Shown piece after piece: positions 61 through 25,241 of a DNA stretch of 25,241 nt. How positions within the stretch are numbered: position 1 is the first letter of the stretch; every line of letters begins with the position of its first letter. Where the stretch lies: positions 1 through 25,241 of IMG/VR virus record IMGVR_UViG_3300035204_001720; one strand, written 5' to 3'. The notes beneath the pieces were generated by a model. The model was not told where the DNA came from. It ran no database searches and worked only from the letters and a program-made list of their open reading frames with translations. This stretch comes from a virus. The translations under genes and the position numbers were made by a program.

Positions 61-918
61 ATGAAGGGAATAATTCTAACAGGTGGAAAAAGCTCAAGGT
101 TATACCCTACCGCATTAGTAAACAATAAGGGGTTGCTGCCTGTATATGATAAACCCATGATATATTATCCCTTGTGTACGTTAATTGAAAATGGAGTAAA
201 AGATATTTGTATTATTTCTTCTCCTGATCAAATTAACAATTATAGAAAGCTATTAGGTAATGGAAGTAGATTTGGTATTAAAATTTGTTATAAGATTCAA
301 AAAAAGCCAGAAGGAATAGCTCAAGCTTTTTTAATTGCTAGAACTTTTATTAAAGGGAGTAGAGTCGCACTAATTCTTGGTGATAACATTTTCTATGGAA
401 GCCGCGTGTTTAGTAGAGCCTTTCGAGGCTTCAGAACAGGAGCCACTATATTTGGATACGAAGTAAAAGACCCCACAAGATATGGGGTAGTCAACTTTCA
501 CAAAGGGAAACTCGAAAGCGTTATAGAGAAACCCAAGGAACCACAGAGCAACTATGCAGTTCCGGGGCTATACTTATTTGATAAAGATGTTTTTGAAATT
601 GCTAAATACCATGTAAAACCCTCTCAAAGAGGAGAACTTGAAATAACTTCCGTAATCAATCAATACATTGGAAGAGGTAAATCAGTAAAACTAGTAAAAA
701 TCAACAGAGGTTGTGCGTGGCTTGACGCAGGGACTCCTACTTCCTTGCACGAATCATCACAATACATTAAGGTTATAGAAGATAGACAAGGAATTAAAAT
801 AGGTTGTGTTGAAGAAGCTGCTTTTAAAAGAAAATTCATAAACAAGGCACAGTTAATAGAAATAGCGGCCAAAATGCCAAATAGCGATTATAAAGAATAT
901 ATAGAAGGATTATTATGA
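61..918 (+). CDS. rmlA: Glucose-1-phosphate thymidylyltransferase (RmlA-like)
   Basis: This enzyme makes dTDP-glucose from glucose-1-phosphate and dTTP, the first step of dTDP-6-deoxysugar synthesis in the cytoplasm. The 285 aa length is close to the usual ~290. The N-terminal nucleotide-binding signature LTGGKSSRLYP is followed by LLPVYDKPMIYYPL (residues 25-38). The sugar-binding/catalytic segments LGDNIFYG, YGVV, EKPKEPQSNYAVPGLYLFD and AWLDAGTP appear in the family order. The usual G-x-G-T-R-L signature is altered to GGKSSRL, but the arginine and leucine remain. The gene overlaps the next by 4 nt, and dTDP-glucose dehydratase lies three genes downstream, which supports a dTDP-sugar role. 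Confidence 0.93.
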   Translation: MKGIILTGGKSSRLYPTALVNNKGLLPVYDKPMIYYPLCTLIENGVKDICIISSPDQINNYRKLLGNGSRFGIKICYKIQKKPEGIAQAFLIARTFIKGSRVALILGDNIFYGSRVFSRAFRGFRTGATIFGYEVKDPTRYGVVNFHKGKLESVIEKPKEPQSNYAVPGLYLFDKDVFEIAKYHVKPSQRGELEITSVINQYIGRGKSVKLVKINRGCAWLDAGTPTSLHESSQYIKVIEDRQGIKIGCVEEAAFKRKFINKAQLIEIAAKMPNSDYKEYIEGLL

Positions 919-1778
919 TATTAGTATTAGGACAAACAGGATACATAGGAAGTCAATTCATAAATGAGTTAAAATATAGAAATATACCATATACAGGATT
1001 ATCGCGGGTAGATATAAATTATTGTAATTATTCTGATCTATTTTCCTATTTAACCACTTCTAATTTTAGAGGCTATGATTTAATTATTAATTGTGCTGGA
1101 TACATAGGTAGGCCAAACGTAGATGCTTGCGAAGATCACAAAGCAGAAACGATAGAGGGAAATGTTGTATTACCTAAAATGTTGTCAGACATTTGCGTGG
1201 AAACAGGTTACACAAAATTAATGCACATATCTTCTGGATGTATCTACAATGGGTATACGAAAAGCTACACCGAGGAAGACCCACCCGATTTTTGTTTTAA
1301 AACTAATAATGGTTCTTTTTATTCTGGGTGTAAAGCTTTAGCCGAGGATCTAATTAATAAAGATAATTCTTATATTTGTCGATTGAGAATTCCTTTTGAT
1401 GAATTTGACAATCCTCGAAATTATCTCAGCAAATTAAAAAATTATGACAAATTATTAAACGCAGATAACTCTGTCTCTCATAGAGCTGATTTTGTTAAAG
1501 CATGTTTAGATTTATATGAGATGAATTGTGATACCGGCATTTACAATGTCGTTAACACCGGCTCGGTGACAACCGCTTGGGTTACGCAGCAGATGGCAAA
1601 ATATAATATTAAAAATGATTTTAGCTTTTTTTCGTCTGAAGAAGAGTTTTACAAATTTGGAGCGAAGGCTCCAAGGTCTAATTGTTTGCTCGATAACTCT
1701 AAATTACTATCATCTGGCGTTAGAATAAGAAGTGTAGAAGAAGCAGTGGACGGCGCTTTGTCTAACTGGAGAGCCTAA
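915..1778 (+). CDS. NAD(P)-dependent sugar reductase/epimerase, RmlD-like SDR
   Basis: This is an extended short-chain dehydrogenase/reductase of 287 aa. The Rossmann glycine motif GQTGYIG is at residues 6-12. The catalytic pair is Tyr136 and Lys140 in YSGCK, with the serine element HISSGC near residue 104. Length and architecture fit RmlD-like dTDP-4-keto-sugar reductases, but the family also includes 4,6-dehydratases and epimerases. The exact substrate is therefore inference from the neighbouring rmlA and rmlB. The start overlaps the end of rmlA (ATGA-type junction) and the stop codon overlaps the next ATG (TAATG), suggesting translational coupling. No RmlC 3,5-epimerase is seen, so the product may be a 6-deoxyhexose other than rhamnose. 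Confidence 0.75.
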   Translation: MILVLGQTGYIGSQFINELKYRNIPYTGLSRVDINYCNYSDLFSYLTTSNFRGYDLIINCAGYIGRPNVDACEDHKAETIEGNVVLPKMLSDICVETGYTKLMHISSGCIYNGYTKSYTEEDPPDFCFKTNNGSFYSGCKALAEDLINKDNSYICRLRIPFDEFDNPRNYLSKLKNYDKLLNADNSVSHRADFVKACLDLYEMNCDTGIYNVVNTGSVTTAWVTQQMAKYNIKNDFSFFSSEEEFYKFGAKAPRSNCLLDNSKLLSSGVRIRSVEEAVDGALSNWRA

Positions 1779-2548
1779 TGAAGCTTACTATTTATATAGC
1801 TATAACTAGAGATTATTTTATATTTTCAAAAATATTAATCCATTCTTTAGTACAGAATTTTCCAAACGAAAAAATAAAAAAAATTGTAATTAACAATATA
1901 GGGTTATCGCAATCTCAATTATCGTGGTTAGAAAATAGTTTTGAAAGAATAGAGTTTATAGAAACGACGAAAGAAACAATAGAAACTGAATTCAAAATAC
2001 ATACAGCAGAATGGCAGGAGGCCGTTAGTCAAAAAACCATAGGCCTACACCAGATATGTGAAGAGAAGAATTATCCGATATTAATGCTTGATTGCGATAT
2101 GTATGTAGTTAAAGACTTTTCTAATGAAATTTTTGAAGAATGTGATATCCAAGTATGTAAACGACCCCCATTATCAACCGGAACGGGGTATGTGTTGAAT
2201 TATATAGGGTGTTGGTTTCTAGTGCATACTCCTTTGGGGAAAGAATTCGTAGAATCATGGATAAGAACCATACCCCACATGAAAGGCGGGCACAAAGAGA
2301 CTCCCGCCTTATGTTCCCTCATACCCACCACTGGTCAACGTTACCTAATAAAAGAAAACACGCAAGATAATGTAGCCTCCTTAAACGCTAAAAAACATGA
2401 AGACGAAAGAAGGACGTCTAAAATTCTCCACTTTAAAAGCAAGCCGCACGGAGGAAGACATTACCAAAGCTTGCCTGAACGAATTTTAAATGTGAAAAAC
2501 ATTCCACACGACATAGGCTACACCATAACACAACTTATAAAATCATGA
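1778..2548 (+). CDS. Glycosyltransferase-like protein, GT-A fold
   Basis: This 256 aa protein begins with a beta strand, IYIAITRDYF, typical of nucleotide-diphospho-sugar transferases. It has a DxD-type metal/nucleotide-sugar motif, MLDCDMYVVKDF, with Asp105-Cys-Asp107. The DxD sits after a hydrophobic strand (YPILML), as in family 8-like GT-A enzymes. It lies between the RmlD-like and RmlB genes, with 1 nt and 4 nt overlaps. It probably transfers a sugar made by this cassette. The acceptor (virion protein, phage DNA or host surface glycan) cannot be read from the sequence. No signal peptide or membrane segment is seen, so it is probably cytoplasmic. Confidence 0.65.
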   Translation: MKLTIYIAITRDYFIFSKILIHSLVQNFPNEKIKKIVINNIGLSQSQLSWLENSFERIEFIETTKETIETEFKIHTAEWQEAVSQKTIGLHQICEEKNYPILMLDCDMYVVKDFSNEIFEECDIQVCKRPPLSTGTGYVLNYIGCWFLVHTPLGKEFVESWIRTIPHMKGGHKETPALCSLIPTTGQRYLIKENTQDNVASLNAKKHEDERRTSKILHFKSKPHGGRHYQSLPERILNVKNIPHDIGYTITQLIKS

Positions 2549-3486
2549 ACTTACTAGTAACAGGAGGATGCGGGTTTATCGGCTCTAACTTTATAGAGCA
2601 CGTTATAAACAAAAAACAAATCAATAAACTAATCAATGTCGACTGTTTGTCTTACGCTGGGTCATTAGACAATACGGCTAGTTTTTGTGGTGACTCTAAA
2701 TATCTTTTTGAAGAATATGATTTATCTAATTATCAAAGCACCTACGATACCTTTTACAAGCATGACATAACACACGTAGTCCATCTAGCTGCAGAAACGC
2801 ACGTAGATAACTCTATATTGGACGCTGACGCATTTTTATCGGCAAACGTACTCGGAACACACAACTTACTTAAAGCCGCCTTAAAATTCAAAATAAAGCG
2901 ATTTCATCATGTATCGACTGATGAAGTGTACGGACATCTAAATAAGGAAGATAAGAAATTTTCAGAAGACACTCCATATGACCCAAGGAATCCGTATTCA
3001 GCTTCGAAAGCTGCTTCAGATTTTTTAGTAAGATCTTATTTTCATACGCATAGCTTGCCGATAACCCTTTCAAATTGTAGTAACAATTATGGCCCAAATC
3101 AGCACAAGGAAAAGTTTATACCTACTGTTATTAATTCATTATTAAGCGAGCAAGATATACCTGTTTACGGTAAAGGAGATAATATCAGAGATTGGATTTA
3201 CGTAGAAGATCACTGTAGGGCTCTATGGAAAATCCTTACCAAAGGTAAAACGGGCGAAACTTATCTGGTGGGATCAAAATGTGAAAAAACAAATTTAGAA
3301 ATAATCCATCAAATTTGTAAAATATTAGAAAAGGAGCCAAAAGAATATATTAACTTCGTAAATGACCGGCTAGGACATGACTTTAGATATGCCATCAATA
3401 ACAAAAAAATATCTAAAGAACTAAAGTGGAAACCCAAAACTAAACTAAAAAAAGGCCTTAAAAAAACCATAAAACATTATGCATGA
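2545..3486 (+). CDS. rmlB: dTDP-glucose 4,6-dehydratase (RmlB-like)
   Basis: This enzyme converts dTDP-glucose to dTDP-4-keto-6-deoxyglucose using bound NAD. The Rossmann motif TGGCGFIGSN is at residues 6-15. The diagnostic dehydratase triad Thr-Asp-Glu appears in VSTDEVYG (T125, D126, E127). The SDR pair is Tyr151 and Lys155 in YSASK. LAAETHVDNSI and SNNYGPNQ further match RmlB, and GDNIRDWIYVEDHC is the usual C-terminal substrate-binding segment. At 313 aa it is a little shorter than the 330-360 aa of cellular enzymes, which is common in phage-borne or streamlined versions. It acts directly after the rmlA product. It is coupled to its neighbours by overlaps of 4 nt upstream and 8 nt downstream. 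Confidence 0.93.
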   Translation: MNLLVTGGCGFIGSNFIEHVINKKQINKLINVDCLSYAGSLDNTASFCGDSKYLFEEYDLSNYQSTYDTFYKHDITHVVHLAAETHVDNSILDADAFLSANVLGTHNLLKAALKFKIKRFHHVSTDEVYGHLNKEDKKFSEDTPYDPRNPYSASKAASDFLVRSYFHTHSLPITLSNCSNNYGPNQHKEKFIPTVINSLLSEQDIPVYGKGDNIRDWIYVEDHCRALWKILTKGKTGETYLVGSKCEKTNLEIIHQICKILEKEPKEYINFVNDRLGHDFRYAINNKKISKELKWKPKTKLKKGLKKTIKHYA

Positions 3487-4450
3487 AACTCTTATAGAAA
3501 ACGTAAAGCTTCATATTGACGAGATTTTACCCCAAGAAAACGAAATCACCCTAAGGGGTTGGTGCGCTTCAGATTCTTCTAAAGTTAAAAAGATAAGACT
3601 TTTCGCTGGTAAAAATTTCGCTCACAAAGGAGAATGCCAAGAAGCTAGGGAAGACGTGTATGAATATTACGAAAAAAATAAAAATTTCCTAAATTCTGGG
3701 TTTACTATTTCTGTCCCCCATAAGCTAAAAGAAGATAAGGATATTTTCTTACAAATTCTACACAAAAACAAATGGGAAAATGTTAAGAGAATAGAAGGAA
3801 GAGCTTCCTTACGTTTAAAAGAGATAAAAACTGATTTTGACATAAATAAAACCTTAGACACAAACTTAATCGTTGTTGATAATTTTTATGAAGACCCCCA
3901 CCTAATAAGAGAGTTCGCCTTATCCAGAAACTCTTTCGCTCCGCACACTGAATACCACAAGGGTCAAAGAACAGAAGAAAACTTTAGGCCAGACGGAGTA
4001 AAGGAGGTCATCAGTAAACTCTTAAACAAAAAAATAACAAATTGGGATACCCACGGAGCCAATGGAGTTTTTCAATTCTGTACGTCTGAGGACGCCTTAG
4101 TTTATCATGTGGACACTCAATCCTATGCGGCTGTAGTGTTTTTAACGCCTGACGCTCCCCCAGAATGTGGCACAACGTTCTATAGGAGTAAGGCCAATGG
4201 CCTAAGAGAGAGCCCTACCAATAAGATATCGGAACAATTAAACAAAACTAAAGAACAATTAAATTTCGAAATTTTTAAAAACGGGTTTTATGATAAAACT
4301 CAGTTTGAGACTGTAGATGTTGTCGGAAATGTATTTAATAGACTCGTCATCTGGGACGCTAAATTAATCCATGCTGCATCAGAATATTTTGGAGATAATA
4401 GGGAAAATTCCAGACTCTGGCATATGTTCTTTTTTGATGCAGAAGAGTAA
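3479..4450 (+). CDS. 2-oxoglutarate/Fe(II) oxygenase-like protein with N-terminal accessory domain
   Basis: The C-terminal two thirds look like a non-haem iron dioxygenase fold. A His210-x-Asp212 pair (YHVDTQ) is followed by distal His298 (LIHAAS) and an arginine at 312 (SRLWHMFFFD) that could bind 2-oxoglutarate. The segment VVFLTPDAPPECGTTFYRSK resembles prolyl-4-hydroxylase/DUF6445-type phage proteins. Residues 1-115 form a separate beta-rich region (EITLRGWCASDSSKVKKIRL) of the sort seen attached to glycan-modifying enzymes. The protein probably hydroxylates a sugar, amino acid or base. Its place between rmlB and a WbqC-like gene favours a role in surface or virion glycan modification. 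The substrate is unknown, and the family call rests on motif order only. Confidence 0.6.
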   Translation: MHETLIENVKLHIDEILPQENEITLRGWCASDSSKVKKIRLFAGKNFAHKGECQEAREDVYEYYEKNKNFLNSGFTISVPHKLKEDKDIFLQILHKNKWENVKRIEGRASLRLKEIKTDFDINKTLDTNLIVVDNFYEDPHLIREFALSRNSFAPHTEYHKGQRTEENFRPDGVKEVISKLLNKKITNWDTHGANGVFQFCTSEDALVYHVDTQSYAAVVFLTPDAPPECGTTFYRSKANGLRESPTNKISEQLNKTKEQLNFEIFKNGFYDKTQFETVDVVGNVFNRLVIWDAKLIHAASEYFGDNRENSRLWHMFFFDAEE

Positions 4451-5127
4451 TGAAAATTGCTATTGTCCAGCCCAACTTTTTTCCATTTAAAGCTTACTAT
4501 GACTTGGCCGGCAGAGTTGATAGGTTTATCTTTTTGGATGATACGCGCTACAACAATAAAAGCTGGGTTAACAAAACTGTCATTAATTTAAATTCTAAGA
4601 ATTATTATTTCAGAGTGCCCTTAGATCATGATCCTTCTGAGCTCGTTTTAACTAAAGACGTAAGACCTAAAAATAAAAGCTGGAAAAATAAATTCCTTAA
4701 ACTTATTAAAGTTCAATACAAGCGTTCTCCAAATTTTGATGTACTATACCCTATTTTAAAAGAAATTATAAACATACCCACAGAATGTTTCGCTCATATG
4801 TCTGCGTACAGTGTTTTTAGGCTAGCTCATAGCGTGCTGGGGGCGAAAACTCATTTTACCTTCTCTTCTATTAAATACGAAAAAGTTAAATTATCGTATC
4901 AAGATAAGATTTTTCATATATGTAAGAAAGAAAAAGCGAAGACACTATATACCTTTGCGGGGAACAGGGGGTCTTTTGACGAAAGAAAATTCACCACGGG
5001 AGGAATAGGGATAAGCTACTTTAATTCTTACTCAAGTAATTATTCCTTTATTGACGAAATTATGCATAATCATTCTTACAGAGACATACTCGAAAAAGAG
5101 TGTAATCTTTTACAAGATGAAACATGA
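4450..5127 (+). CDS. WbqC-like family protein
   Basis: This 225 aa protein opens with IVQPNFFPFKAYYDLAGRVD and then DDTRYNNKSWVNKT, matching the N-terminal signature of the WbqC family (typical form QSNYxPWKGYFDLI...DDVQYTKRDWRNRN). WbqC-like proteins sit in O-antigen and deoxysugar clusters and are thought to act in amino-sugar transfer or modification, though their biochemistry is poorly established. The start overlaps the previous stop (TAATG). The 3' end overlaps the preferred phoH start by 11 nt, so the sugar cassette and phage core genes are expressed as one unit. Confidence 0.8.
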   Translation: MKIAIVQPNFFPFKAYYDLAGRVDRFIFLDDTRYNNKSWVNKTVINLNSKNYYFRVPLDHDPSELVLTKDVRPKNKSWKNKFLKLIKVQYKRSPNFDVLYPILKEIINIPTECFAHMSAYSVFRLAHSVLGAKTHFTFSSIKYEKVKLSYQDKIFHICKKEKAKTLYTFAGNRGSFDERKFTTGGIGISYFNSYSSNYSFIDEIMHNHSYRDILEKECNLLQDET

Positions 5128-11493: not shown

Positions 11494-13506
11494 ATGAGCC
11501 AAAATAAGCCAAACGAAAAAAGCTCCCCCAAGAAGCCAAGAAGAAGGACGACGAAAAAGACAGAAACGTCTGCGGAGCCCCTAATGACCTCCACCGCTTC
11601 TCATGAGTCTTTCGCTCATAGAGCGGATACTCACACCAGAAGAAACAAAGCCGGATCAATAGAAAGGACGGACAAATTCACTAATATTGAGAATGGTCTT
11701 ATTCCTTTTAAGACTTATTCAGGATCAGGACAAAGCGGAATCTCCATTAGAGATGCCGTGATTCTTTGTCAAAAAGCTTATTACAATTTCTCCGTTTTCA
11801 GAAACACCGTCGACCTTATGACGGAGTTTTCAACTAGCGAAGTCTTTTTTGAGGGGGGTAGTAAAAAATCGAGAAACTTTTTTGAATCGCTTTTCGCCAA
11901 GGTAAATATCCTAGATCTGCAAGACAGGTTCTTCAGGGAATACTATAGATCAGGAAATGTTTTCTTGTATAGATTTGATGCCAAGCTGAAACCAGCAGAT
12001 GTAAAAAAGATAACTCAGACTTTCGGGGCAAAAAGTCAAAAGGTTAAAATACCCTATAGATATGTTGTATTAAATCCAGCAGACATATCAATTGCCGGGT
12101 CTTTAAATTTTACCGAAACAAGAAAATATCACAAAGTCTTAACCGACTTTGAATTAGAAAAAATAAGAAACCCGAAAACGCCGGAAGATAAAGAAATTTA
12201 TAACGCTCTCCCGGAAGCAACTAAGAGAGCGATAAAGCAAGCTCCGCTTTCAAATTCGATTACAATAGAACTAGATGGAGAAAGGTTCTCCGCGATATTT
12301 TACAAGAAACAAGACTATGAGCCGTACGCTGTCCCCATGGGATATCCAGTGCTCGAGGACTTGAATCATAAAGCAGAACTTAAAAGAATGGATATGGCTG
12401 TAACCAGAACTGTTCAGCAAGCAATTCTTCTAGTTACCATGGGTACTGAGCCGGATAAAGGCGGCATCAATCAGGAAAACTTAATGAAAATGCAGGCTCT
12501 TTTCGAAAATCAATCTGTCGGAAGAGTCTTGATCGCGGATTATACAACTAAAGCTCAATTCGTTATCCCTCAGGTATCGGATATTCTTGATCCCAAAAAA
12601 TATGAAGTAGTTAATGCTGACATTAATGCTGGCCTTAATAATATGCTTACAGGCGTAGGTTCTAGCGGAGAAAAATTCGCAAATCAGCAAGGAAAGGTTG
12701 AGGTATTCATAGCTAGACTTAGACAAGCTAGAAAAACGTTTTTAAATGATTTTCTTCTGCCTGAAGTTAAAAGAGTCTCTAAGACGCTTGGATTCAAGAA
12801 TCACCCTGTTCCTAAGTTCGAAGAAATTTTGCTAAGAGACAACACTCAAAAATATAGAGTATATACAAGAATGGCCGAACTCGGACTGTTAACTCCAGAA
12901 GAACTTTTTCAAGCTTTGAATTCAAACAGGCTTCCAAACAAGGAAGAGTCAATGGAATCTCAAAAACAGTATCTAAACGAAAGGGATGATGGTCTTTATT
13001 TCCCGTTGGTTGGAGGTTCACCTACGGAAAACCCAGCCATGGAATCTTGGGAAGCCCCAGAGCCAAAAAACATAGTTGACCCGAACAAAGAACCGCAGAA
13101 AAGCCAAACTACCTCCCCGAATAATGGAAGACCCTCTGGAACGGACGGCGTTCCACAAGAAAGGGAAAAGGCTGCGGCGAAACAAAAATACAGCTTCGAA
13201 GAAATGAGGGTTAACATTGTTAAATCTCAAAACCTAGGAAAAAAGGTCGAAAGACAACTCAGGAAGATTCACAAAAAAACAAGACTCACCAAGGCTCAAA
13301 AACAAATTGCTCAAACCATTGGACATATAATTATTGCTAACGAAGCGCCTGATAATTGGGAAAAGTCTGTCGAAAAATATTGCAAAACGCCAGCCGACCA
13401 AAACGAAAACCAAGTAAGAGCCGTAGAGGAAATTGCGTTAGAGCATCAATTAGATACTTTCATGGCAAGCATGTTGTATCACAGTAAAATAGAGGAAAAA
13501 AAATGA
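11494..13506 (+). CDS. Portal protein
   Basis: This 670 aa protein follows TerL directly. It has portal-like features: an N-terminal basic low-complexity tail (KKPRRRTTKK), then a core with AVILCQKAYYNFSVFRNTVD and FFREYYRSGNVFLYRFD, which resembles the stem/wing region of myophage portals. A long helical region follows (LNHKAELKRMDMAVTRTVQQ). Residues ~520-565 are a Pro/Gln/Ser-rich linker, and residues 570-670 form an extra helical, lysine-rich C-terminal domain. That makes the protein longer than most gp20-like portals (~520-560 aa). The start lacks a Shine-Dalgarno sequence and follows an A-rich run. The stop overlaps the next start by 4 nt at an A8 tract. Confidence 0.85.
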   Translation: MSQNKPNEKSSPKKPRRRTTKKTETSAEPLMTSTASHESFAHRADTHTRRNKAGSIERTDKFTNIENGLIPFKTYSGSGQSGISIRDAVILCQKAYYNFSVFRNTVDLMTEFSTSEVFFEGGSKKSRNFFESLFAKVNILDLQDRFFREYYRSGNVFLYRFDAKLKPADVKKITQTFGAKSQKVKIPYRYVVLNPADISIAGSLNFTETRKYHKVLTDFELEKIRNPKTPEDKEIYNALPEATKRAIKQAPLSNSITIELDGERFSAIFYKKQDYEPYAVPMGYPVLEDLNHKAELKRMDMAVTRTVQQAILLVTMGTEPDKGGINQENLMKMQALFENQSVGRVLIADYTTKAQFVIPQVSDILDPKKYEVVNADINAGLNNMLTGVGSSGEKFANQQGKVEVFIARLRQARKTFLNDFLLPEVKRVSKTLGFKNHPVPKFEEILLRDNTQKYRVYTRMAELGLLTPEELFQALNSNRLPNKEESMESQKQYLNERDDGLYFPLVGGSPTENPAMESWEAPEPKNIVDPNKEPQKSQTTSPNNGRPSGTDGVPQEREKAAAKQKYSFEEMRVNIVKSQNLGKKVERQLRKIHKKTRLTKAQKQIAQTIGHIIIANEAPDNWEKSVEKYCKTPADQNENQVRAVEEIALEHQLDTFMASMLYHSKIEEKK

Positions 13507-15257
13507 GCTTTAGAGATACGGGGCAAAAAGATTCTGGGAATGTTATAAGTAGAGATTCTACTTATCTAAGCGCAAATGATGGCTTACTTATTCCCGCGTG
13601 TGACGCAGACAAAAGCATTGTCGTGTATGACATATTGTCTTACGGCGCTGGCACGTTAGGCACTGCTGCTGATGGTGGAGGAACTCGCCTCGGTTTTATA
13701 AATGCAGGGCACAACGAATATGGTGTCTCACTCATAGTCCCCGCTGGTCAGGGTGTATATACTAATGCTCAAAGCGAGAACATAACAATTACTTATGCTA
13801 TTGTAGATGGTCTTCCTGCCAGCCTTATAACTAACGTAAGTTCGGGAGGGGGAGGAACAACTACGACAACTACCGCCGCTGCGACGACAACTACCACCGC
13901 TGCGCCTACTAATTTAGAATTTGCATTGGCGACCTCTTCGATAGCGGAAGGAAACGCCGGAACATCTACTCATACAGTAACAGTAAATAGAACAGGTAAT
14001 ACCAATGGTACAGCTACAGTAGATTATGTTACGATTGGTATTACAACGTGGGTTGAAGATTATACTGCTGCAAGTGGAACTTTAACTTTCGCAGCAGGAG
14101 TAACTTCTCAAACCATATCCATAACAATTGCTGGAGATACCGGTAATGAAGATGACGAAACCTTTAATATCACTTTATCGAACCCAACCCAAACCGTGGG
14201 CGTAGCATCTATAACCGGAACTAATCCACACGTAGTTACGATTACAAATGACGATACCTCTACAATAGGGTTTGCTTTGGCAACCGCTTCTGTATTTGAG
14301 GCCCACGGAGCGTCCGGATATCATGATATAACAGTCACTAGGAGTGACACCAACGGTACGGCTTCAGTAGATTATGCTACGGCTGACGGCACCGCAACAG
14401 CCGGCACCGACTACACCGGAATTAGCACAACCACCTTGAATTTCGCCGACGGGCAGGCGAATGCGATCTTATCCGTATCAATTTTTGGAGATACTGACTA
14501 TGAGAATGACGAAACCTTTACGGTGACCTTGACTAACGCAACCTCACAATACGGCGCAGTAGCGTTAGGTACCAGCACTCATACAGTTACGATTACAAAT
14601 GATGATACAACGACAACTACCACCGCAGCACCAGCATCAAACGCTTGTGTCGCTCAAACTTCGGGAAACGAGTACTATTGGAGCGTAGATTCCACTTTCA
14701 CGCCGGTAGTCGGCGCTAACGCAACCCATTACAGTAGAACTCAGTATGTAAATGCTGATGGCAGCTTGTGGCTCGCGTACAACGGTACAGCAACCAGATG
14801 GAAAATCAATGATGGAGTAAACGAGGGCGGGAGTGAATGGTACGAGTCTGACAATGACGGAACTAATCCTTGGGATGTCACTTGGGCAAACGCTTACATA
14901 AGCGTTACCGAAAAGGCTAACGCTACCCATTGTTATCCAGCGGGCACATCAAACTTCTGCATAGCTGGACAAGGATACTATCCAGAATACGAAGGCACTT
15001 GGATACCATACAATACATATAACGGGAAAGCGGTATGGTGGAACCAATCCGCAAATGGCTACGAACTGTTTATGTGGTACGATTCCGGCAGCTCTGTGTG
15101 GCAAATTTATAGCGATGGGTGGGAGCCTCACGGAAACAACGGATACGCGTCAGGTTATAGTTCTAGCGATGGGGACGGAACCAATCCTTGGGATGCTGAT
15201 TGGTCTTCTGAAATTGGAAATCAAACCTTTGACAGCATAAATTCAGGGGATTGTTAA
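13503..15257 (+). CDS. Modular capsid-surface protein with two Calx-beta-like domains
   Basis: Domain order in 584 aa: residues 1-103 are a decoration-like domain homologous to the complete 90 aa protein coded at 19791. A Thr/Ala linker follows (118-135). Two Calx-beta-like domains lie at ~137-251 and ~255-368, each with the acidic GDTxxExDETF motif and ending in VTITNDD. A second Thr/Ala linker (369-377) leads to two aromatic C-terminal repeats (~385-475 and ~485-584), each with an NG...W pattern and DGTNPWD. Calx-beta domains bind calcium in other proteins, and the C-terminal repeats could bind glycans; both are inference. It is probably displayed on the head and reaches outward, as Hoc does in T4. 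It overlaps portal by 4 nt. Confidence 0.75.
   Translation: MSFRDTGQKDSGNVISRDSTYLSANDGLLIPACDADKSIVVYDILSYGAGTLGTAADGGGTRLGFINAGHNEYGVSLIVPAGQGVYTNAQSENITITYAIVDGLPASLITNVSSGGGGTTTTTTAAATTTTTAAPTNLEFALATSSIAEGNAGTSTHTVTVNRTGNTNGTATVDYVTIGITTWVEDYTAASGTLTFAAGVTSQTISITIAGDTGNEDDETFNITLSNPTQTVGVASITGTNPHVVTITNDDTSTIGFALATASVFEAHGASGYHDITVTRSDTNGTASVDYATADGTATAGTDYTGISTTTLNFADGQANAILSVSIFGDTDYENDETFTVTLTNATSQYGAVALGTSTHTVTITNDDTTTTTTAAPASNACVAQTSGNEYYWSVDSTFTPVVGANATHYSRTQYVNADGSLWLAYNGTATRWKINDGVNEGGSEWYESDNDGTNPWDVTWANAYISVTEKANATHCYPAGTSNFCIAGQGYYPEYEGTWIPYNTYNGKAVWWNQSANGYELFMWYDSGSSVWQIYSDGWEPHGNNGYASGYSSSDGDGTNPWDADWSSEIGNQTFDSINSGDC
13863..13904 (+). repeat. Tandem 21-nt linker repeat (two copies)
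   Basis: A 21-nt unit beginning ACGACAACTACC occurs twice in tandem (13863-13883, 13884-13904) with one difference. It encodes the Thr/Ala linker before the first Calx-beta-like domain. A third copy lies at 14610-14630. Confidence 0.85.
14235..14257 (+). repeat. 23-nt repeat at end of first Calx-beta domain (partner 14586-14608)
   Basis: The 23 nt coding for VTITNDDT at the end of Calx-beta domain 1 recur at 14586-14608 with a single substitution. Conservation at DNA level points to recent duplication or recombination of the domain unit. Confidence 0.8.
14610..14630 (+). repeat. Third copy of the 21-nt Thr/Ala linker repeat
   Basis: This copy matches the tandem unit at 13863-13904 closely, with differences near its 3' end. 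It again joins two protein domains (Calx-beta 2 to the C-terminal repeats). Confidence 0.8.
14856..14877 (+). repeat. 22-nt repeat coding DGTNPWD (partner 15174-15195)
   Basis: These 22 nt, coding for DGTNPWD in the first C-terminal aromatic repeat, recur at 15174-15195 with one substitution. The copies mark equivalent positions of a tandemly duplicated ~100-residue domain. Confidence 0.75.
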
Positions 15258-15276: not shown

Positions 15277-16422
15277 ATGAGTGATAACGAAAAAGAAAAC
15301 AACGAAGAACAAATCAAAGCTTTTTATGACGAAAGCATTGATATCTCATTGCCTGACGATATGGTCATACCTACTCAGCCCGAAGAAGGAGATGCAAAAG
15401 CGTACGAAAACGAGGTTGAGGATGATGTAGATGTTTCTTTTAAATTTGCGTTTGTAGGGGTAGGGCAAGGTGGGTCAAGAATTGCCCAAACGTTTAAAAA
15501 GCTAGGCTATAATCGCGTAGCTGCAATCAATACCGCTCAACAAGACTTAAACTCTCTTGACCTAGAACACAAACTGTGTATCGGAGAAGGAGGAGCCGGA
15601 AAACAGCCTGAGTTAGCGAAAGAAATATTCCGAGAAAAAAAAGAAGATGTTTTGGATTTTTTGCGTTATTCCTTTGGAGAAACGGTTGACAGAATTTTTG
15701 TATGCGCTGGGGGCGGAGGAGGCTCCGGGTCAGGCATGATGGCTCCATTAACGGAAACAGCTGAAGAATTGCAAAAGATTTTAAATTCAGAATCAAAACA
15801 AGTTGGCGTTATTCTCACTTTACCAAGAAAGTCGGAAGGAGAAAAAGTTCGAATGAATGCTATGAAAGCTCTCCATGAGGCTATCAATTTAAAGAATAGA
15901 AAAATCATTTCTCCTCTCATTGTTTTAGATAACGAAAAGATTAGCCAACTATACCCCAACCTTCCAGTTGCTAAATTTTGGGATACAGCAAACTCGAGTA
16001 TAGCTGGATTGTTTCACTTGTTTAATTTGACGTCCAACAAAGACAGTAGTTATTCTTCCTTCGATAAAAACGATTACAAAACCATATTAGATTCGGGGGT
16101 TGTAGCTTTTGGGGTTTCCCCCGTTAAGAAATGGGATGATCCCGTTGCACTTTCGAGAGTTGTAAGGGATAACCTTAGGAACAGTTTACTGTCTGGCGTG
16201 ACAGATATATCCACGGGAGAAACAGCGGGGGTAATAGTTATTGGAGGGAAAGATGTGTTAGACAACCTTCCTCAGAATAATATAGATCAAGCCATTGACC
16301 AACTTAACAGGTTATTAAAACAAGGAAGCGTAATTCATAGGGGAATTTATAGCGGAGATAAACAAGGCAGCCTGATGATTTTTACGTCAATTGGAGGGCT
16401 TGCTAATCCCTCAGGAAGATAA
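15277..16422 (+). CDS. Tubulin/FtsZ-like GTPase
   Basis: This 381 aa protein has an acidic 55-residue N-terminal extension followed by a tubulin-superfamily GTPase core. The T1 loop GVGQGGS is at 61-67, AAINTAQQDL matches the FtsZ 'ANTDxQxL' segment (82-91), and the tubulin signature GGGGGSGSG is at 145-153. The T7 catalytic loop FDKNDYKTIL (262-271) lines up with FtsZ DFADVRTVM, keeping both aspartates (263 and 266). Polymerisation-coupled GTP hydrolysis is therefore plausible. Phage tubulins such as PhuZ position replicating DNA in some jumbo phages; whether this one does so is unknown. Its place between the portal/decoration and protease genes is unusual. It may alternatively be closer to TubZ, CetZ or FtsZ-like relatives. 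Confidence 0.85.
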   Translation: MSDNEKENNEEQIKAFYDESIDISLPDDMVIPTQPEEGDAKAYENEVEDDVDVSFKFAFVGVGQGGSRIAQTFKKLGYNRVAAINTAQQDLNSLDLEHKLCIGEGGAGKQPELAKEIFREKKEDVLDFLRYSFGETVDRIFVCAGGGGGSGSGMMAPLTETAEELQKILNSESKQVGVILTLPRKSEGEKVRMNAMKALHEAINLKNRKIISPLIVLDNEKISQLYPNLPVAKFWDTANSSIAGLFHLFNLTSNKDSSYSSFDKNDYKTILDSGVVAFGVSPVKKWDDPVALSRVVRDNLRNSLLSGVTDISTGETAGVIVIGGKDVLDNLPQNNIDQAIDQLNRLLKQGSVIHRGIYSGDKQGSLMIFTSIGGLANPSGR

Positions 16423-16432
16423 GGTTTAAGTT

Positions 16433-17116
16433 ATGGAGATAGACTTTTCAAATCAAATAAAGTCTTTCAATGTAGATAATATTACCTATGAAGAAACTAG
16501 GGAAGAGCTGTCAGAACAGGCAAATAAAAAATTTCAAGTTTTAAACCTAAGCTTAGAAAATACGCCCATTGTCAATCCTCCAAAAAACTCAAGCATAACT
16601 ACGAAAGAAGAGCTCGATTACATTAAATCGTTTCAGGAACAATGGGGTCCAAGCGAAAGCCTCTTAAAAAAATGTGACGATGACCCAGACGGATTGATAG
16701 TGGACTTTCATGATAAGGTTTACGGTAAAAACGGCAGAAAAGAATACGACATGGAAGCGATCATGGAAGATTTAAATATTTATGTCATGAACGTAAAATT
16801 TATATATAAGCGCGTAAGACCTTATCAGGTGTCAGAATATCACAAGGTTGAAATCAAACATAATAAACCTATGCAAAACGAGGGGACAGCTAACACACCA
16901 TCTTATCCCAGCGGGCATACTATGGCAGCATTTCTTGCTGCTAAGATTTGTGGTTTTTATTACCCAGAGTGCGAAAAAGAATTCTTAAGATTAGCCGAGA
17001 CAGTGGGTAGGTCTAGGATAAAAGAAGGTGTTCATTTTAAAAGCGATAACGAATATTCAAAATTACTTGTAGACGAAGTCGTAATGCCTGCATATCTAGA
17101 ACACATAATTAAATGA
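16433..17116 (+). CDS. PAP2-superfamily acid phosphatase-like protein
   Basis: All three PAP2 motifs are present in order. Motif 1 (K-x6-RP) is Lys122 to Arg129-Pro130. Motif 2 (PSGH) is residues 159-162 in SYPSGHTMAA. Motif 3 (SR-x5-H-x3-D) has Ser194, Arg195, His201 and Asp205. The spacing is within the family range, so phosphatase (or vanadate-haloperoxidase-like) chemistry is expected. There is no signal peptide or membrane helix, unlike lipid phosphatases, so the substrate is probably soluble. The first ~110 residues are a separate acidic region starting MEIDFSNQIK, echoed by the protein coded at 19023. It follows the tubulin-like gene by 10 nt and overlaps the next gene by 4 nt. Confidence 0.85.
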   Translation: MEIDFSNQIKSFNVDNITYEETREELSEQANKKFQVLNLSLENTPIVNPPKNSSITTKEELDYIKSFQEQWGPSESLLKKCDDDPDGLIVDFHDKVYGKNGRKEYDMEAIMEDLNIYVMNVKFIYKRVRPYQVSEYHKVEIKHNKPMQNEGTANTPSYPSGHTMAAFLAAKICGFYYPECEKEFLRLAETVGRSRIKEGVHFKSDNEYSKLLVDEVVMPAYLEHIIK

Positions 17117-19790: not shown

Positions 19791-20063
19791 ATGTCGTATT
19801 TCAGAGAAACAGGCAGACCGAAACCCAGCAACGTCGTAAACGCGACAGCGGCGGGAGCATTAATTACTGGTGTATCCGGAAAAAAAATCGTTGTTTATGA
19901 CGTGTTGACTAGCGCAGCAATTTCTTTAACAGACGGAAGCAATACACTTATGTATGTTCAAGCAGGAAATTGTAATTTGCAGTCTCCGGTTGATTTCGGA
20001 ACAGGGAACGGAGTGACTCTTGTGGGTACAGCTAACGTAACTATAACATACGGCATTGAATAA
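19791..20063 (+). CDS. Small capsid decoration-type protein (stand-alone domain)
   Basis: This 90 aa protein is a compact version of the N-terminal domain of the 584 aa protein coded at 13503. MSYFRETGRPKPSNVV parallels MSFRDTGQKDSGNVI, KKIVVYDVLTSAAISL parallels KSIVVYDILSYGAGTL, and NVTITYGIE parallels NITITYAIVDG. It is mostly beta strand and has no charged tail. The position immediately before the protease-scaffold gene and the small size suit a head decoration or cement protein. AAGG precedes the ATG as a ribosome-binding site. The family is not one I can name, so the role is inferred from context and the paralogue. Confidence 0.65.
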   Translation: MSYFRETGRPKPSNVVNATAAGALITGVSGKKIVVYDVLTSAAISLTDGSNTLMYVQAGNCNLQSPVDFGTGNGVTLVGTANVTITYGIE

Positions 20064-20065
20064 AT

Positions 20066-21571
20066 ATGAAAGACTTTAAATACAAAACAATCTTTAGTTC
20101 GACTATCAGGCCTCTAGTTCCTGAAGAAAAGGACAAGTACCTAGCCTTAGCAAGCCTTGCTGACGTCGGTGACTTTATTCCTGATGTAGATACAGACGAA
20201 AATGTAGACCTGCTCCCCATAGCCTTTAATGCCTGTGTGGTAAACAGGGTAAACAAAAACGGCGATGTCATCGACACGGAAACTGCGGCAAAAATTTACG
20301 AAAATTTTATAAACAAGCCCATTAACATTGAGCACAATAGAGACAAAGTGGTTGGAGTTATTCTTGCTGCTGGATTTAGTGAATTCGGAACAGATTCTTC
20401 CCTATCAAAAGATGACATTTCCCAAACTGTATCCCCGTTCAATATTACATTAGGCGGCGTTTTCTGGAAAGTGGTAAATAACGACTTAGCAGGCCTAATT
20501 GAGGAGGCAAGTGACCCTACAAGTGACAACTACATGTCTATTTCTGCTAGTTGGGAGCTGGGATTTTCAGACTTCAATTTGATTTTATTAAAAGACGACG
20601 ATAAAAACATCGAAAACGGTGAGATAATCGCTGAAGAGAAGAAGATTGAAGAGCTCCAACACTATCTCAAGGCCTTGGGAGGAGGAGAGGATATCGGAGA
20701 TAACACCAAGGTATACAGGCAAGTTATTGGTGAAGTAGTTCCACTCGGCATAGGTCTAACAGAGAATCCGGCAGCGGACGTAGAAGGCGTGGCAACCGAG
20801 ACTACAATAACGGCTAGTGACGAAAAAGAAAAAGAAAAAGAAATTTTAGTAAAAGATAGTGAAAGTCTTAATAATATTTCACAAGAACCCAAAATTGATG
20901 TAATTTTAAGGGAGAATATCATGAAAATAAAATCAGTAAAAGACATTACGGATGACTTGTTAAAAGAGGTCTCCGCTTCTGTTGTGGCTGACTTTATCGA
21001 GGAAGAGATGAGAGAAGCTTCTGAAAAGTTCGTGGAAGAAAAGGGACAACTCGAGCAAGAGCTCAAGTCTTCCCAAGAAGCCCACGAAGCTATTTCAAAA
21101 GAACACGAAGAGCTCAAGACTAAGCTTGATTCCGTTGAGAAGGCTTTATCATCCCTCGAAGAAGAGAAGACACAAAGAGAGGCTGAAGCCAAATTCAACG
21201 AGCGCATGGCGTTATTGGATGAAGAGTACGAATTGAGCGATGAAGATCGCGAAGTTCTCGCTTCTGACATTAAAGACATGAATAACGACGATTTTGAATC
21301 TTATCAAAAGAAGATTAACGTTCTTCTTAAAGCAAAGTCGAAAGCCGCTATCGAAGCCCAAAAGGCTGAGGAAGCTAAACAAGCGGAAGAGGCCAAAGCC
21401 TCAGAGCAAATTGAACAAACCGAGGAAAAGGAAGAAACGGTTGTTGAAACTGCGGTTGACGAAGCCGACAAAGAAGACACTGAGGTTCCTAACTCTATCC
21501 AAGCGGAAGAAGAAACTCTTGTTGAAAAATACAAGAAGGCCTTTGACTTGGATCAATTCGAATTAAATTAA
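20066..21571 (+). CDS. Prohead protease with C-terminal scaffold domain
   Basis: Residues 1-~240 resemble phage prohead proteases. FINKPINIEHNRDKVVGVI supplies a candidate catalytic His90, and NYMSISASWELG supplies candidate Ser158 or Ser160, the order expected of herpesvirus-protease-like S77/S78 enzymes. GEVVPLGIGLTENPAADV closes the domain. Residues ~265-285 are a charged linker (EKEKEKE). Residues 286-501 form a highly charged coiled coil followed by an Ala/Glu/Gln-rich segment and the C-terminal helix EKYKKAFDLDQFEL, typical of scaffolds that end with a capsid-binding helix. A strong internal start at 20921 would produce the scaffold alone. The gene sits just before the head and capsid genes, as in many phages. 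Confidence 0.8.
   Translation: MKDFKYKTIFSSTIRPLVPEEKDKYLALASLADVGDFIPDVDTDENVDLLPIAFNACVVNRVNKNGDVIDTETAAKIYENFINKPINIEHNRDKVVGVILAAGFSEFGTDSSLSKDDISQTVSPFNITLGGVFWKVVNNDLAGLIEEASDPTSDNYMSISASWELGFSDFNLILLKDDDKNIENGEIIAEEKKIEELQHYLKALGGGEDIGDNTKVYRQVIGEVVPLGIGLTENPAADVEGVATETTITASDEKEKEKEILVKDSESLNNISQEPKIDVILRENIMKIKSVKDITDDLLKEVSASVVADFIEEEMREASEKFVEEKGQLEQELKSSQEAHEAISKEHEELKTKLDSVEKALSSLEEEKTQREAEAKFNERMALLDEEYELSDEDREVLASDIKDMNNDDFESYQKKINVLLKAKSKAAIEAQKAEEAKQAEEAKASEQIEQTEEKEETVVETAVDEADKEDTEVPNSIQAEEETLVEKYKKAFDLDQFELN
20908..20915 (+). promoter_or_regulatory. Internal ribosome binding site for nested scaffold
   Basis: AAGGGAGA lies inside the protease-scaffold gene, ending 5 nt before an in-frame ATG at 20921. 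It is a stronger Shine-Dalgarno match than that of the full-length gene, whose start at 20066 has none obvious. Confidence 0.65.
20921..21571 (+). CDS. Nested scaffold protein (in-frame internal start)
   Basis: An in-frame ATG at 20921 begins MKIKSVKDITDDLLKEVSAS exactly where the protease domain and linker end and the coiled coil starts. The preceding AAGGGAGA has good spacing, so a 216 aa scaffold could be made separately from the protease-scaffold fusion. This is the same logic as lambda C/Nu3. The product is acidic and helical, with long Glu/Lys/Gln heptad-like segments and a conserved-looking C-terminal helix. Separate expression is inferred from sequence and would give the excess of scaffold over protease that head assembly needs. 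Confidence 0.6.
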   Translation: MKIKSVKDITDDLLKEVSASVVADFIEEEMREASEKFVEEKGQLEQELKSSQEAHEAISKEHEELKTKLDSVEKALSSLEEEKTQREAEAKFNERMALLDEEYELSDEDREVLASDIKDMNNDDFESYQKKINVLLKAKSKAAIEAQKAEEAKQAEEAKASEQIEQTEEKEETVVETAVDEADKEDTEVPNSIQAEEETLVEKYKKAFDLDQFELN

Positions 21572-21593: not shown

Positions 21594-22232
21594 ATGGCAG
21601 TAACTTTAAGACCATTTAGAGACTACGATGAAAAGGACGTCATTAACTTGTTCGCCCTTGACACCACCAGCCTCGATACGGCAATTACAACTTGGGCTAC
21701 CCGCGCAACAGCAGGTTCTCTCGTTAAGTTGTCGACCGCAGGCTGGCACGCCGACAAAGCAAGTATTGTCGACATGGAAGCAATATCTGGCGCTCATAGC
21801 GTGCAGAATGTAACAAGCCAAAACTGGGGCGTACAAGCGAAAGTAGAAATTACTGACGCAGCGTCTGACATTGTTTTGGGAATGATGCTCAATCACGTAG
21901 CGTTGTATGACGAAAACGGAGAGCAATTACAATATAACCCAAGAAAGGCAAGTGAGCTAGAAGCAGTTCTACCTTGGCAAGCAGTCCCAATCGTAAGAAA
22001 GGGAATGTTCTTGCTTGATAGCCCTCAGCTATCTGGCGAAACCTTTAATGCAGGAGCAAGATTGACTTGTATGGCGAACGCAGTAGACGGAGAATGGACA
22101 ACCGGATCTAACGCTACCACAGACACTCTTGTTGGATACACCCTCGGCAATAACCATGGTACAGTTGGCAACGCAGACCATCACACGCAGCATTTAGTAT
22201 TGCTTGATGTAACTGCTGGAATGGCCGCTTAA
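21594..22232 (+). CDS. Head protein, probable decoration or capsid-associated
   Basis: This 212 aa product is beta-rich and acidic. No named family is recognised with certainty. It lies between the protease-scaffold and major capsid genes, a site often taken by head decoration or stabilising proteins. Segments include VVLGMMLNHVAL-like hydrophobic strands (residues ~98-108: DIVLGMMLNHVALYDENGEQ) and a central LPWQAVPIVRKGMFLLDSPQ. The C terminus is His/Thr-rich (GNADHHTQHLVLLD). AAGGA is present ahead of the ATG, indicating good translation. The high density of small residues suits a structural protein made in quantity. Confidence 0.6.
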   Translation: MAVTLRPFRDYDEKDVINLFALDTTSLDTAITTWATRATAGSLVKLSTAGWHADKASIVDMEAISGAHSVQNVTSQNWGVQAKVEITDAASDIVLGMMLNHVALYDENGEQLQYNPRKASELEAVLPWQAVPIVRKGMFLLDSPQLSGETFNAGARLTCMANAVDGEWTTGSNATTDTLVGYTLGNNHGTVGNADHHTQHLVLLDVTAGMAA

Positions 22233-22260: not shown

Positions 22261-23415
22261 ATGAAGTTAAAATTAAAAAACACTCCAGAACAAGTAGAAC
22301 TTGTTAAAGCCATTGGCTCTAGGGACGCATCAGTTTCCCGTGAAGCTTCCGAGGCTTTTGCAGCTTTTCTTGGACCTGTAATTCAAAAAGTTTTGCTGAC
22401 GGCTGGAACCGCAAGTCAAATTTTTGTTGATTCAGCCTTTGATGAAGACGACAGCCCGAGTTACCCCCTCGACCTACACTACGGTGAAGGCGAAGGCTAT
22501 GTAACCGTTTGGAGTCAGCACATGGCTGGTGGATTACCGACCTCGCAAGTCGAGGGAATGAAAGAAGTCAAGATCGCAACGTATCGTTTAGACTCAGCAG
22601 TGAGTTTTAACAAGCGTTATGCTCGCAGAGCACGCCTTGACGTAATTAGCAAAGCCATCGAAAGAATGGCTAACGAAGTGCTTATTAAGCAAGAGAGAAA
22701 TGCTTGGGCAGTTATTCTTAAGGCTCTTTCCGAGGCTTACACTAACAGCTTGAACCATTTCGTCGACGCCAGAACCAATGGTTTTGACTTGGACGCGCTT
22801 AACAAAGCAATGACTCTTAACACGCGAATCAATGAGTCCTTCTCGGGACACACGCCTATCGCACCTTACTCAACCGGAATTACTGACCTTTATGTCAGCC
22901 CCGAGGTTAAGGAAAAGATTCGCTCGTTCGCTTATAACCCGATCTATCAATCGAACACTAATGATGTTCTTCCGGATAACATCCGTGAGGGCATCTATAA
23001 TGCTGCTGGAATGCAAAGCATCTATGGCGTTAATATTAATGAGATGGTTGAACTTGGTGCAGGCAAGAAGTATCTTAGCTTGTTTGAAGCTGTAGCTCCT
23101 GCTACGGAAGCTGCAAACGCAAGCACAGATATGTTCTCTCTGCTTAACATCGACAACGGAGCAGATGACTCCGCTGGCGCTAACTGGGCAACGGGAACTC
23201 AAGACCTTGCTATCGGTGTAGACAACTCTCGCGGAGCATTTATCCGCCCGGTTGCACGCCAGCATGATAGCGGTGGAGACGGAACGTTTAGAGCTCTTCC
23301 TGATGAGCAATTCAACATGTACGGAAGTCGCGTTGAAAAGACAGGTTTCTACGGATTCCTCGAAGAGGGTCGGATTTGTATCGACGCTCGTGCGATCATG
23401 GGAGTAATTCTTTAA
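22261..23415 (+). CDS. Major capsid protein (probable HK97 fold)
   Basis: This 384 aa protein has a strong Shine-Dalgarno sequence (AAGGAG, about 10 nt before the ATG) and is followed by an efficient rho-independent terminator, both expected of the most abundant structural gene. The N terminus is helical (residues 1-50). The body has ATYRLDSAVSFNKRYARRAR, then RMANEVLIKQERNAWAVILK, resembling the E-loop/spine-helix transition of HK97-type capsid proteins in T4-like phages. C-terminal segments include GAFIRPVARQHDSGG and GFYGFLEEGRICIDARAIMG. Position after protease, scaffold and decoration genes agrees. Sequence-level family assignment is not certain. Confidence 0.85.
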   Translation: MKLKLKNTPEQVELVKAIGSRDASVSREASEAFAAFLGPVIQKVLLTAGTASQIFVDSAFDEDDSPSYPLDLHYGEGEGYVTVWSQHMAGGLPTSQVEGMKEVKIATYRLDSAVSFNKRYARRARLDVISKAIERMANEVLIKQERNAWAVILKALSEAYTNSLNHFVDARTNGFDLDALNKAMTLNTRINESFSGHTPIAPYSTGITDLYVSPEVKEKIRSFAYNPIYQSNTNDVLPDNIREGIYNAAGMQSIYGVNINEMVELGAGKKYLSLFEAVAPATEAANASTDMFSLLNIDNGADDSAGANWATGTQDLAIGVDNSRGAFIRPVARQHDSGGDGTFRALPDEQFNMYGSRVEKTGFYGFLEEGRICIDARAIMGVIL

Positions 23416-24377: not shown

Positions 24378-25241
24378 ATGGCGACCAACTACCAAGTTTG
24401 TATAACAAATTTAAATACTGGGGAAGTTATTCACTGCGCAGGCAGCAGTAGCTCTTCAAGTGGTAGTTCGTCATCCAGCTCTTCTTCGTCAAGCGTTGTA
24501 GGATCCGGTAATCAAGGGCACCAAGGGCATCAGGGAGAAGGTGGTGGGGGAAGCGGTAGCGGTAGCGGCCCCACAGAAGTAACTCTAGCTATTACTGAAA
24601 ACAGTAATGCTTTTTACGTCGACGGAACAAGAAACGCCAACATAGTTCTCTCTGTTAATACTAGGTATAAATTTGATTTATCTGATTTGAGTCTTTATGG
24701 CCATGTATTTCAATTATCCACAACGGTAGATGGAATATGGAATAATGGTGATACATATGATGGCGATTTTGATGACGAAATAGAAAAAGTAGGCACAGAA
24801 GGAACACCCGGGGCTTACCTGCTATGGGACATTCCTAATATAGTAAACAATATAATGTATTACTATTGCACTCAGCATTCTGGCATGGGTGGAAAACTTA
24901 GAATTGCTGGCGACCAAGGCCACCAAGGAATTGAAGGGAGCCAAGGTTATCAGGGAACGATACTTGTTGGTTACCAAGGGCAAGCTGGGGCTTTTTCCGC
25001 GCAGGGATATCAAGGATATCAGGGCTACCAAGGGGTCGAAGGAAATCAAGGCTATCAGGGAGAACAAGGAGACCAAGGAAGTCAAGGTTATCAAGCGACG
25101 ATTACTTTAGGATATCAAGGACAATTAGGAAGTCAAGGTTATCAAGGAGCCTCAGGAACAAATGGTTCTGACGGAAATCAAGGTTATCAAGGGATCGGAG
25201 GTATTGAAGGAAACCAAGGTTATCAAGGGGTTGGGGGAACA
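24378..25241 (+). CDS. Collagen-like fibre protein with cupredoxin-like domain (3' end outside window)
   Basis: The ORF is open to the right edge with 288 codons visible. The N terminus MATNYQVCITNLNTGEVIHC is followed by a long serine run and a Gly/Gln/His linker (GNQGHQGHQG). Residues ~65-176 resemble the plastocyanin/cupredoxin-like fold found in marine phage fibres: YKFDLSDLSLYGHVF (His109), and a C-terminal YYYCTQHSGMGG with Cys164, His167 and Met170 spaced like type 1 copper ligands. From ~178 to the edge, collagen-type G-x-y triplets are dominated by GYQ, GNQ and GxQ, nearly without proline. This looks like a virion fibre or tail fibre. The receptor-binding end lies beyond the window. 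Confidence 0.8.
   Translation, partial: MATNYQVCITNLNTGEVIHCAGSSSSSSGSSSSSSSSSSVVGSGNQGHQGHQGEGGGGSGSGSGPTEVTLAITENSNAFYVDGTRNANIVLSVNTRYKFDLSDLSLYGHVFQLSTTVDGIWNNGDTYDGDFDDEIEKVGTEGTPGAYLLWDIPNIVNNIMYYYCTQHSGMGGKLRIAGDQGHQGIEGSQGYQGTILVGYQGQAGAFSAQGYQGYQGYQGVEGNQGYQGEQGDQGSQGYQATITLGYQGQLGSQGYQGASGTNGSDGNQGYQGIGGIEGNQGYQGVGGT
24909..25241 (+). repeat. Collagen-like G-x-Q triplet repeat region
   Basis: The DNA repeats AGGNTATCAAGG-type units coding for GYQG, GNQG and GSQG triplets with short interruptions (TILVGYQGQAGAFSA; ATITLG). It continues past the window end. The interruptions may mark trimer hinges. Confidence 0.85.

Follow-up and report, generated by a model that had tools for sequence, protein, structure and literature searches.

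According to the excerpted text of PMC10385173, Hoc-like proteins re-use one capsid-binding domain for different cargo, short and long forms with the same binding domain can coexist in one phage, and the long Hoc of phage PG7 couples an N-terminal capsid-binding domain to a lipase; by analogy, T4 Hoc and phage PG7 would already set a precedent for long head-display proteins. The turret of HFTV1 is portrayed in extracts of PMC12494034 as a small base protein on the capsid hexamers together with a large outward protein endowed with sugar-binding-type and enzyme domains. T5 pb10 appears in extracts of PMC5292684 and PMC10766600 as a decoration protein of modular build that binds the capsid strongly at the hexamer centres, and a review (PMC7602432, likewise in extract) lists Hoc, pb10, gp12 and gp8.5 as decoration proteins aiding surface binding. 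Here, we examine a 584-residue protein and a 90-residue protein that shares its N-terminal domain, both encoded in a 25,241-bp virus record (IMG/VR IMGVR_UViG_3300035204_001720; hereafter the window, all unprefixed coordinates being window positions), and reason that the longer one is probably a virion head display protein using the capsid site of the smaller.

The long protein is encoded by an open reading frame (ORF) at 13503-15257 (plus strand, as are all of its segments), which starts with ATG and has no internal stops. Its first 102 residues (13503..13808) make up a docking-type domain (blastp E 9e-9 against the 90-residue protein; family hidden Markov model, HMM, 4e-35) that was modelled as an all-beta region with a predicted local distance difference test score (pLDDT) of about 80. 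A Gly/Thr/Ala-rich linker follows (about residues 114-135; 13842..13907; pLDDT about 33), whose DNA holds a 21-bp tandem repeat (13863-13904), and leads to two Calx-beta domains (residues 136-253, 13908..14261; residues 254-370, 14262..14612; local HMM limits 136-253 and 253-370). The Calx-beta assignment, which a previous reading made from the sequence alone (hereafter the sequence-only reading) had also made, is secure by both profile and fold: Pfam PF03160 matched two stretches of the protein at 1.7e-30 (105.9 bits, the cut-off being 27), the local HMM reached 9.7e-52 for the second domain (PF03160 best stretch 249-368), and model residues 134-252 superposed on the Calx-beta sandwich 3gin_B (VIA-align) with Z 18.3 at 1.3 Å over 114 aligned residues. 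In an alignment to NCX1 several predicted Ca-ligand positions are acidic, with the residues that we take to be E451, E454 and D447 kept and the presumed D446 replaced by Gly.

Downstream of the Calx-beta pair, a short Thr linker leads to two Cys-bounded, Trp/Tyr-rich repeats of about 95 residues (residues 387-478, 14661..14936; residues 488-584, 14964..15254), which align with each other at 26 of 83 identical positions (E 4e-6), bearing out the aromatic C-terminal repeats of the sequence-only reading. The first copy scored 2.5e-30 with a repeat HMM built partly from that same copy, while the second, likewise recovered by repeat alignment and HMM, is 67% identical to its counterpart in the related contig L009. 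The repeat HMM matched long proteins alone among the loci then compared. Searches of Pfam, the PDB and cultured phages returned no match for the repeats, and a pattern scan of IMG/VR returned nothing with the single sequence and only two already known contigs with the alignment. The model of this aromatic tip is unreliable (mostly pLDDT <60), and the glycan binding once proposed for it stays putative, being neither supported nor excluded.

The 90-residue protein (19791..20063, plus strand) is a stand-alone version of the docking-type domain and, by its homology to the long protein's N-terminal domain and its AlphaFold2 model, a candidate head decoration protein. The alignment pairs residues 3-100 of the long protein with residues 4-89 of the small one (34 of 98 identical, 35%; pairwise E 9e-9), so the match claimed previously extends over nearly the whole of the small protein. 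Since a phmmer search of 4892 ORFs with the N-terminal domain recovered the small protein of the window at 1.8e-5 and a homologue in phage L006 at 5e-12, the correspondence is not due to chance. An iterated HMM search of 85 sequences (84 loci plus the window) gave 29 domain ORFs, duplicates included, and over all loci fetched we counted 70 domain ORFs, 43 of them distinct. The small protein was modelled from 22 sequences as an all-beta fold (pLDDT 83.8; predicted template-modelling score 0.70), and the AlphaFold2 models of both domains have the same strand order, in line with the structural correspondence anticipated by the sequence-only reading; the second alignment held rows of the small family, and the two models are thus not independent. 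In a tree, the N-terminal domains of seven large proteins clustered together, apart from the 16 small ones (support 90/96), a grouping consistent with one duplication. An N-terminal motif, F-(R/K)-x-(T/D/S/N)-G, noticed after the fact, occurs in 26 of the 43 distinct domain ORFs as against 35 of 8501 ORFs in the comparison set, family members included (the small group as counted took in two contig-cut long proteins, L002 and L109, and L094 duplicates the L006 protein in cut form); that it might be a capsid-touching arm is only a guess.

The domain occupies fixed places in the genomes of related uncultured phages. A profile search of 50 whole capsid-bearing or long-protein records gave 22 matches in 17 records, all of them in two slots: after the portal gene (long form) or directly before a gene of the type found at 20066 in the window (short form). 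Eight further records (G031 had been searched before) added one match, the long protein of L090. In the long-protein contigs where the portal gene is visible, the long gene is the next long ORF behind it, with short ORFs intervening in L008, L010 and L127. The later set of 79 loci held exceptions, namely an extra 105-residue copy beside the long gene in L127 and short stand-alone copies upstream of the terminase in L132, L133 and L137. In L127 (4109-5220) the long-gene slot contains tandem domain genes (105 and 263 residues) besides the usual small gene at 8438, and L132 (3344-3946) encodes tandem 97-residue docking-domain proteins on the upstream side of the terminase region, a long way from the usual slot.

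These positions bear on a rival view in which the long protein would serve as an adhesin of the tail or baseplate, with the small one as an adaptor on the tail side. Long adhesins, too, are typically built with Calx-beta and repeat modules, L007 carries further downstream a 3013-residue ORF with a Calx-like match, and the copies upstream of the terminase in L132, L133 and L137 would suit such a role; yet the two genes are found between the putative portal gene and the putative capsid gene, and the 50 whole records held no domain copy outside the two slots, which leaves a tail-side function quite unlikely.

What follows the docking domain varies widely. The 11 non-redundant long proteins span 146 to 1544 residues and all carry the domain at the N-terminus. 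Behind it, the window and L009 have two Calx-beta domains and two Trp repeats, L004 two Calx-beta domains and a Cys-rich tip, L090 three Calx-beta domains and Trp repeats, and L119 and L112 (the latter cut by the contig end) three Calx-beta domains; L008 combines Calx-beta with a peptidase-like module, L120 adds a Cys tip to the same pair, L006 joins Trp repeats to the peptidase-like module and lacks Calx-beta, and L010 has a linker only. For the L127 long protein the docking HMM was the sole module HMM to match. The module HMMs were built from some of the same proteins and their E-values are thus not independent; a Pfam scan of four long proteins beside that of the window gave independent Calx and Ig (PF16403) calls. 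The peptidase-like module (L008:2324-4378, L120:2911-5343 and L087:1699-6333) was recognised by the conserved motifs WC(A/S)PTAAA, LGHTVLI and RDNH, whose Cys, His and Asn/Asp residues presumably resemble those of papain-type C39 enzymes; it found no Pfam match up to E 1 in the two proteins scanned (L008, L006) and no match in the PDB. The outer part appears to be shuffled among at least four module types, one of them enzyme-like.

Site patterns point to exchange directly behind the docking domain. The portal, the small protein and the docking domain of the window are closer to L004, and its Calx and Trp parts are closer to L009. Counting informative sites shared with L004 versus L009, the docking domain gave 26:7 as opposed to 12:30 and 4:33 for the two Calx-beta domains (26:7 against 16:63 for both together, Fisher 1.2e-8), while among the flanking genes the portal gave 193:19 and the small gene 43:5. 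Ten of the 12 other genes compared clearly favour L004, and the gene at 21594 (26:20) and the capsid gene (35:29) do so slightly. These patterns indicate that the docking domain tracked its flanking genes and that exchange affected the Calx part, with a breakpoint that would lie in or near the linker. Two close relatives (L002:10001-10365 and L003:5979-6404) have contigs that both break within the Thr-rich linker following the docking domain, much as assemblies break off at repetitive sequence or variable junctions.

The long gene was accompanied by the small gene in all eight contigs in which the small slot is visible, even though the two lie several genes apart. The L090 contig runs out after seven codons of the small gene, which read MYFRETG, and L127 has both genes. 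Among the five nearest contigs that have no long gene, four have no small gene either, and a supported group of ten contigs comprises six with both genes and four with neither, which demands at least four label changes. Of 28 hand-coded contigs with the tubulin gene, 17 could be scored for both genes (both, eight; long only, none; small only, four; neither, five). Eight long-bearing contigs that end before the small slot were not scored (L002, L003, L109, L112, L119, L120, L124, L129), and the coding left out contigs with an unrelated gene of 420-600 residues between portal and tubulin (e.g., L023, L029, L041-L043, L050, L051), L134, near-duplicates such as L145 and some others; among those left out, the small gene occurs without the long one in L023, L042 and L043. 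The tree behind the group of ten consisted of 30 hand-picked contigs. Block exchange as the sole cause of the co-occurrence was considered and rejected, as the trees of genes between both slots also need three to four label changes; in L006, the gene tree and the small-protein sequence indicate that a 19023-type gene was likely exchanged together with the small gene. For the 28-contig set the independent-pairs test is not significant (p 0.25), and we regard the link between the long and small genes as suggestive.

The co-occurrence also bears on whether both proteins sit on the head at different sites, the long form having moved after duplication, e.g., to the portal vertex or a collar (like whiskers). 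Such a move would agree with the position of the long gene immediately behind the portal gene, the stop of which overlaps its start (ATGA), and with the low identity (24-48%) between the two paralogues of one phage. Separate sites, however, do not predict that the long gene should be joined by the small one in eight of eight contigs, and we consider this arrangement unlikely.

Our favoured reading is that the 584-residue protein probably acts as a head display protein on the capsid site of the small one. Its first approximately 102 residues would be a beta-sandwich docking domain, arisen by duplication of the gene for the 90-residue protein, that binds the capsid lattice as that protein does, either sharing its site or being a minor subunit of the same capsid-bound assembly; we take the sharing of one capsid site to be likely. 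The flexible Thr/Ala linker and the two Ca2+-type Calx-beta domains would serve as a spacer carrying the Trp-rich repeats outward, where these may contact the host surface or its matrix, and recombination at the domain/linker boundary would swap the outer part and keep the docking part matched to the capsid. A more specific and rather doubtful version supposes a mixed platform, in which the 90-residue protein builds a regular ring or layer where a few long paralogues take the place of single subunits, so that one evolving socket would serve a population-level library of exchangeable tips (calcium-stiffened spacers, Trp repeats, a cysteine-peptidase-like enzyme); assembly of the long form would then require the small form, which would account for the long form never occurring alone.

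Several observations weigh against this reading. All contigs are fragments of uncultured phages, known here from their genes alone, and virion location, capsid binding, calcium binding and an adhesive role are accordingly predictions. The labels of the capsid and portal genes stem from weak profile matches, the terminase alone being strong. The independent-pairs tests of the co-occurrence gave p 0.125 and 0.25, with too few events, and in L128 the small gene has no long partner. A PDB profile search found no convincing relative and no turret match up to E 10. Finally, every fold match of the small protein has Z <8, which the tool itself notes as unspecific, and the top structural neighbours are nucleoplasmin-like chaperone domains (Z 7.8). 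The latter would favour a small protein that acts as an assembly chaperone or lies inside the particle, with a long one that is not exposed on the virion; in addition to the unspecific Z, the linker, Calx-beta domains, repeats and shuffled modules fit outward display and not packing inside the head, making this alternative very improbable. In favour of the display reading is a weak likeness of the small protein's all-beta model to chain 8qpg_TD of HFTV1 (Z 7.6, 3.4 Å, 84 aligned), whose length (114 residues) suggests that it is the turret base protein, and to the cement trimer of Helicobacter phage KHP40 (7dou; Z 5.8), these matches too lying below the tool's trust level. A best Z of 7.8 is no evidence of a new fold, and against a viral model library the small protein had two matches at E 0.001 or better, both to uncharacterised phage proteins.

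The 'capsid surface' and 'decoration' of the sequence-only reading are words of interpretation; that interpretation is partly borne out, by a shared domain with a conserved home in an apparent head cluster, a modular protein with an apparently exchanged distal part and the eight-of-eight co-occurrence. The window reads, in order, sugar-nucleotide genes, PhoH, an ERCC4-type nuclease, the terminase large subunit, a putative portal, the long ORF, a tubulin/FtsZ-like gene, PAP2, further genes, the 90-residue ORF, a 501-residue ORF, a 212-residue ORF and a putative capsid gene. The terminase match is firm (PHROG 2, 2.5e-22), the portal (11494..13506, plus strand) matched PHROG 16240 weakly (E 0.014), and the putative major capsid protein (22261..23415, plus strand; 93 related IMG/VR places) matched PF25209 Phage_capsid_4 at E 1.9e-4 and 22.3 bits, under the 27-bit cut-off; with the conserved gene order, the locus looks like a head gene cluster. 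The 501-residue gene (20066..21571, plus strand), directly behind the 90-residue gene and kept in related loci, is a putative prohead protease or scaffold gene named from its position alone, and Pfam and PHROG searches with its product found no match. The 212-residue protein (21594-22232), between the latter and the capsid gene, is kept in nearly all related loci and may be an alternative candidate for the main decoration protein, a further point counting against the display reading.

Elsewhere in the window, a sugar-nucleotide cassette (61-5124) encodes a nucleotidyltransferase (8e-55), an RmlD-type protein (1e-16), a weak GT8-like match, a dehydratase (2.4e-78), DUF6445 and a WbqC-like protein (5.5e-34). 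The tubulin/FtsZ-like gene (15277-16422; PF00091, 1.3e-13) adjoins the long-gene slot within the head cluster and is kept in many relatives, and the PAP2-superfamily membrane phosphatase-like gene (16433-17116; 2.7e-11) was present, among the compared loci, in few close relatives only (L081, L092). Collagen-like-looking tandem repeats (Gly-x-Gln) occur at the window end (25005-25095). A tblastn search of 50,697 phage records with the capsid and small proteins as queries revealed no cultured relative (one E 0.6 match being of no weight), the terminase had distant matches only, and the 584-residue protein matched one record, through its Calx part alone. We name no host, since none of the 84,980 bacterial and archaeal genomes scanned for the capsid protein yielded a confirmed relative.

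Set against the described systems, the window family resembles several of them in part. In the HFTV1 turret, a head trimer sits on a base hexamer, into which the head protein inserts; the extracts of PMC12494034 do not describe the head protein as a paralogue of the base protein. In the window family, by contrast, the long protein itself carries the base-type domain, and no sequence match joins the two systems. We know of no Calx-beta part or bare-domain paralogue for T5 pb10, and no sequence link to it was found. The Calx-beta domains share Pfam family and fold with those of the Na/Ca exchanger, in a different host protein and context; a literature search joining Calx-beta, phage and capsid returned no paper, and one joining Calx-beta with bacteriophage returned none on phage heads, judging by title. 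The parallel to T4 Hoc drawn by the sequence-only reading is a fair analogy of design, with a capsid-binding domain, a string of beta-sandwiches and a variable outer part, and does not extend to descent (no Hoc match for the 584-residue protein in Pfam and PHROGs, E up to 0.1). As opposed to Hoc, the window family has the docking domain at the N-terminus in 11 of 11 long proteins, a spacer mostly of Calx-beta and a short form that is the bare domain. If our reading is true, this uncultured phage lineage would have a plug-and-socket head surface, with one conserved docking domain and traceable recombination right behind it; it would allow mixing between paralogous decoration proteins within one capsid-bound assembly to be tested directly, and would extend the Hoc idea to an unrelated domain.

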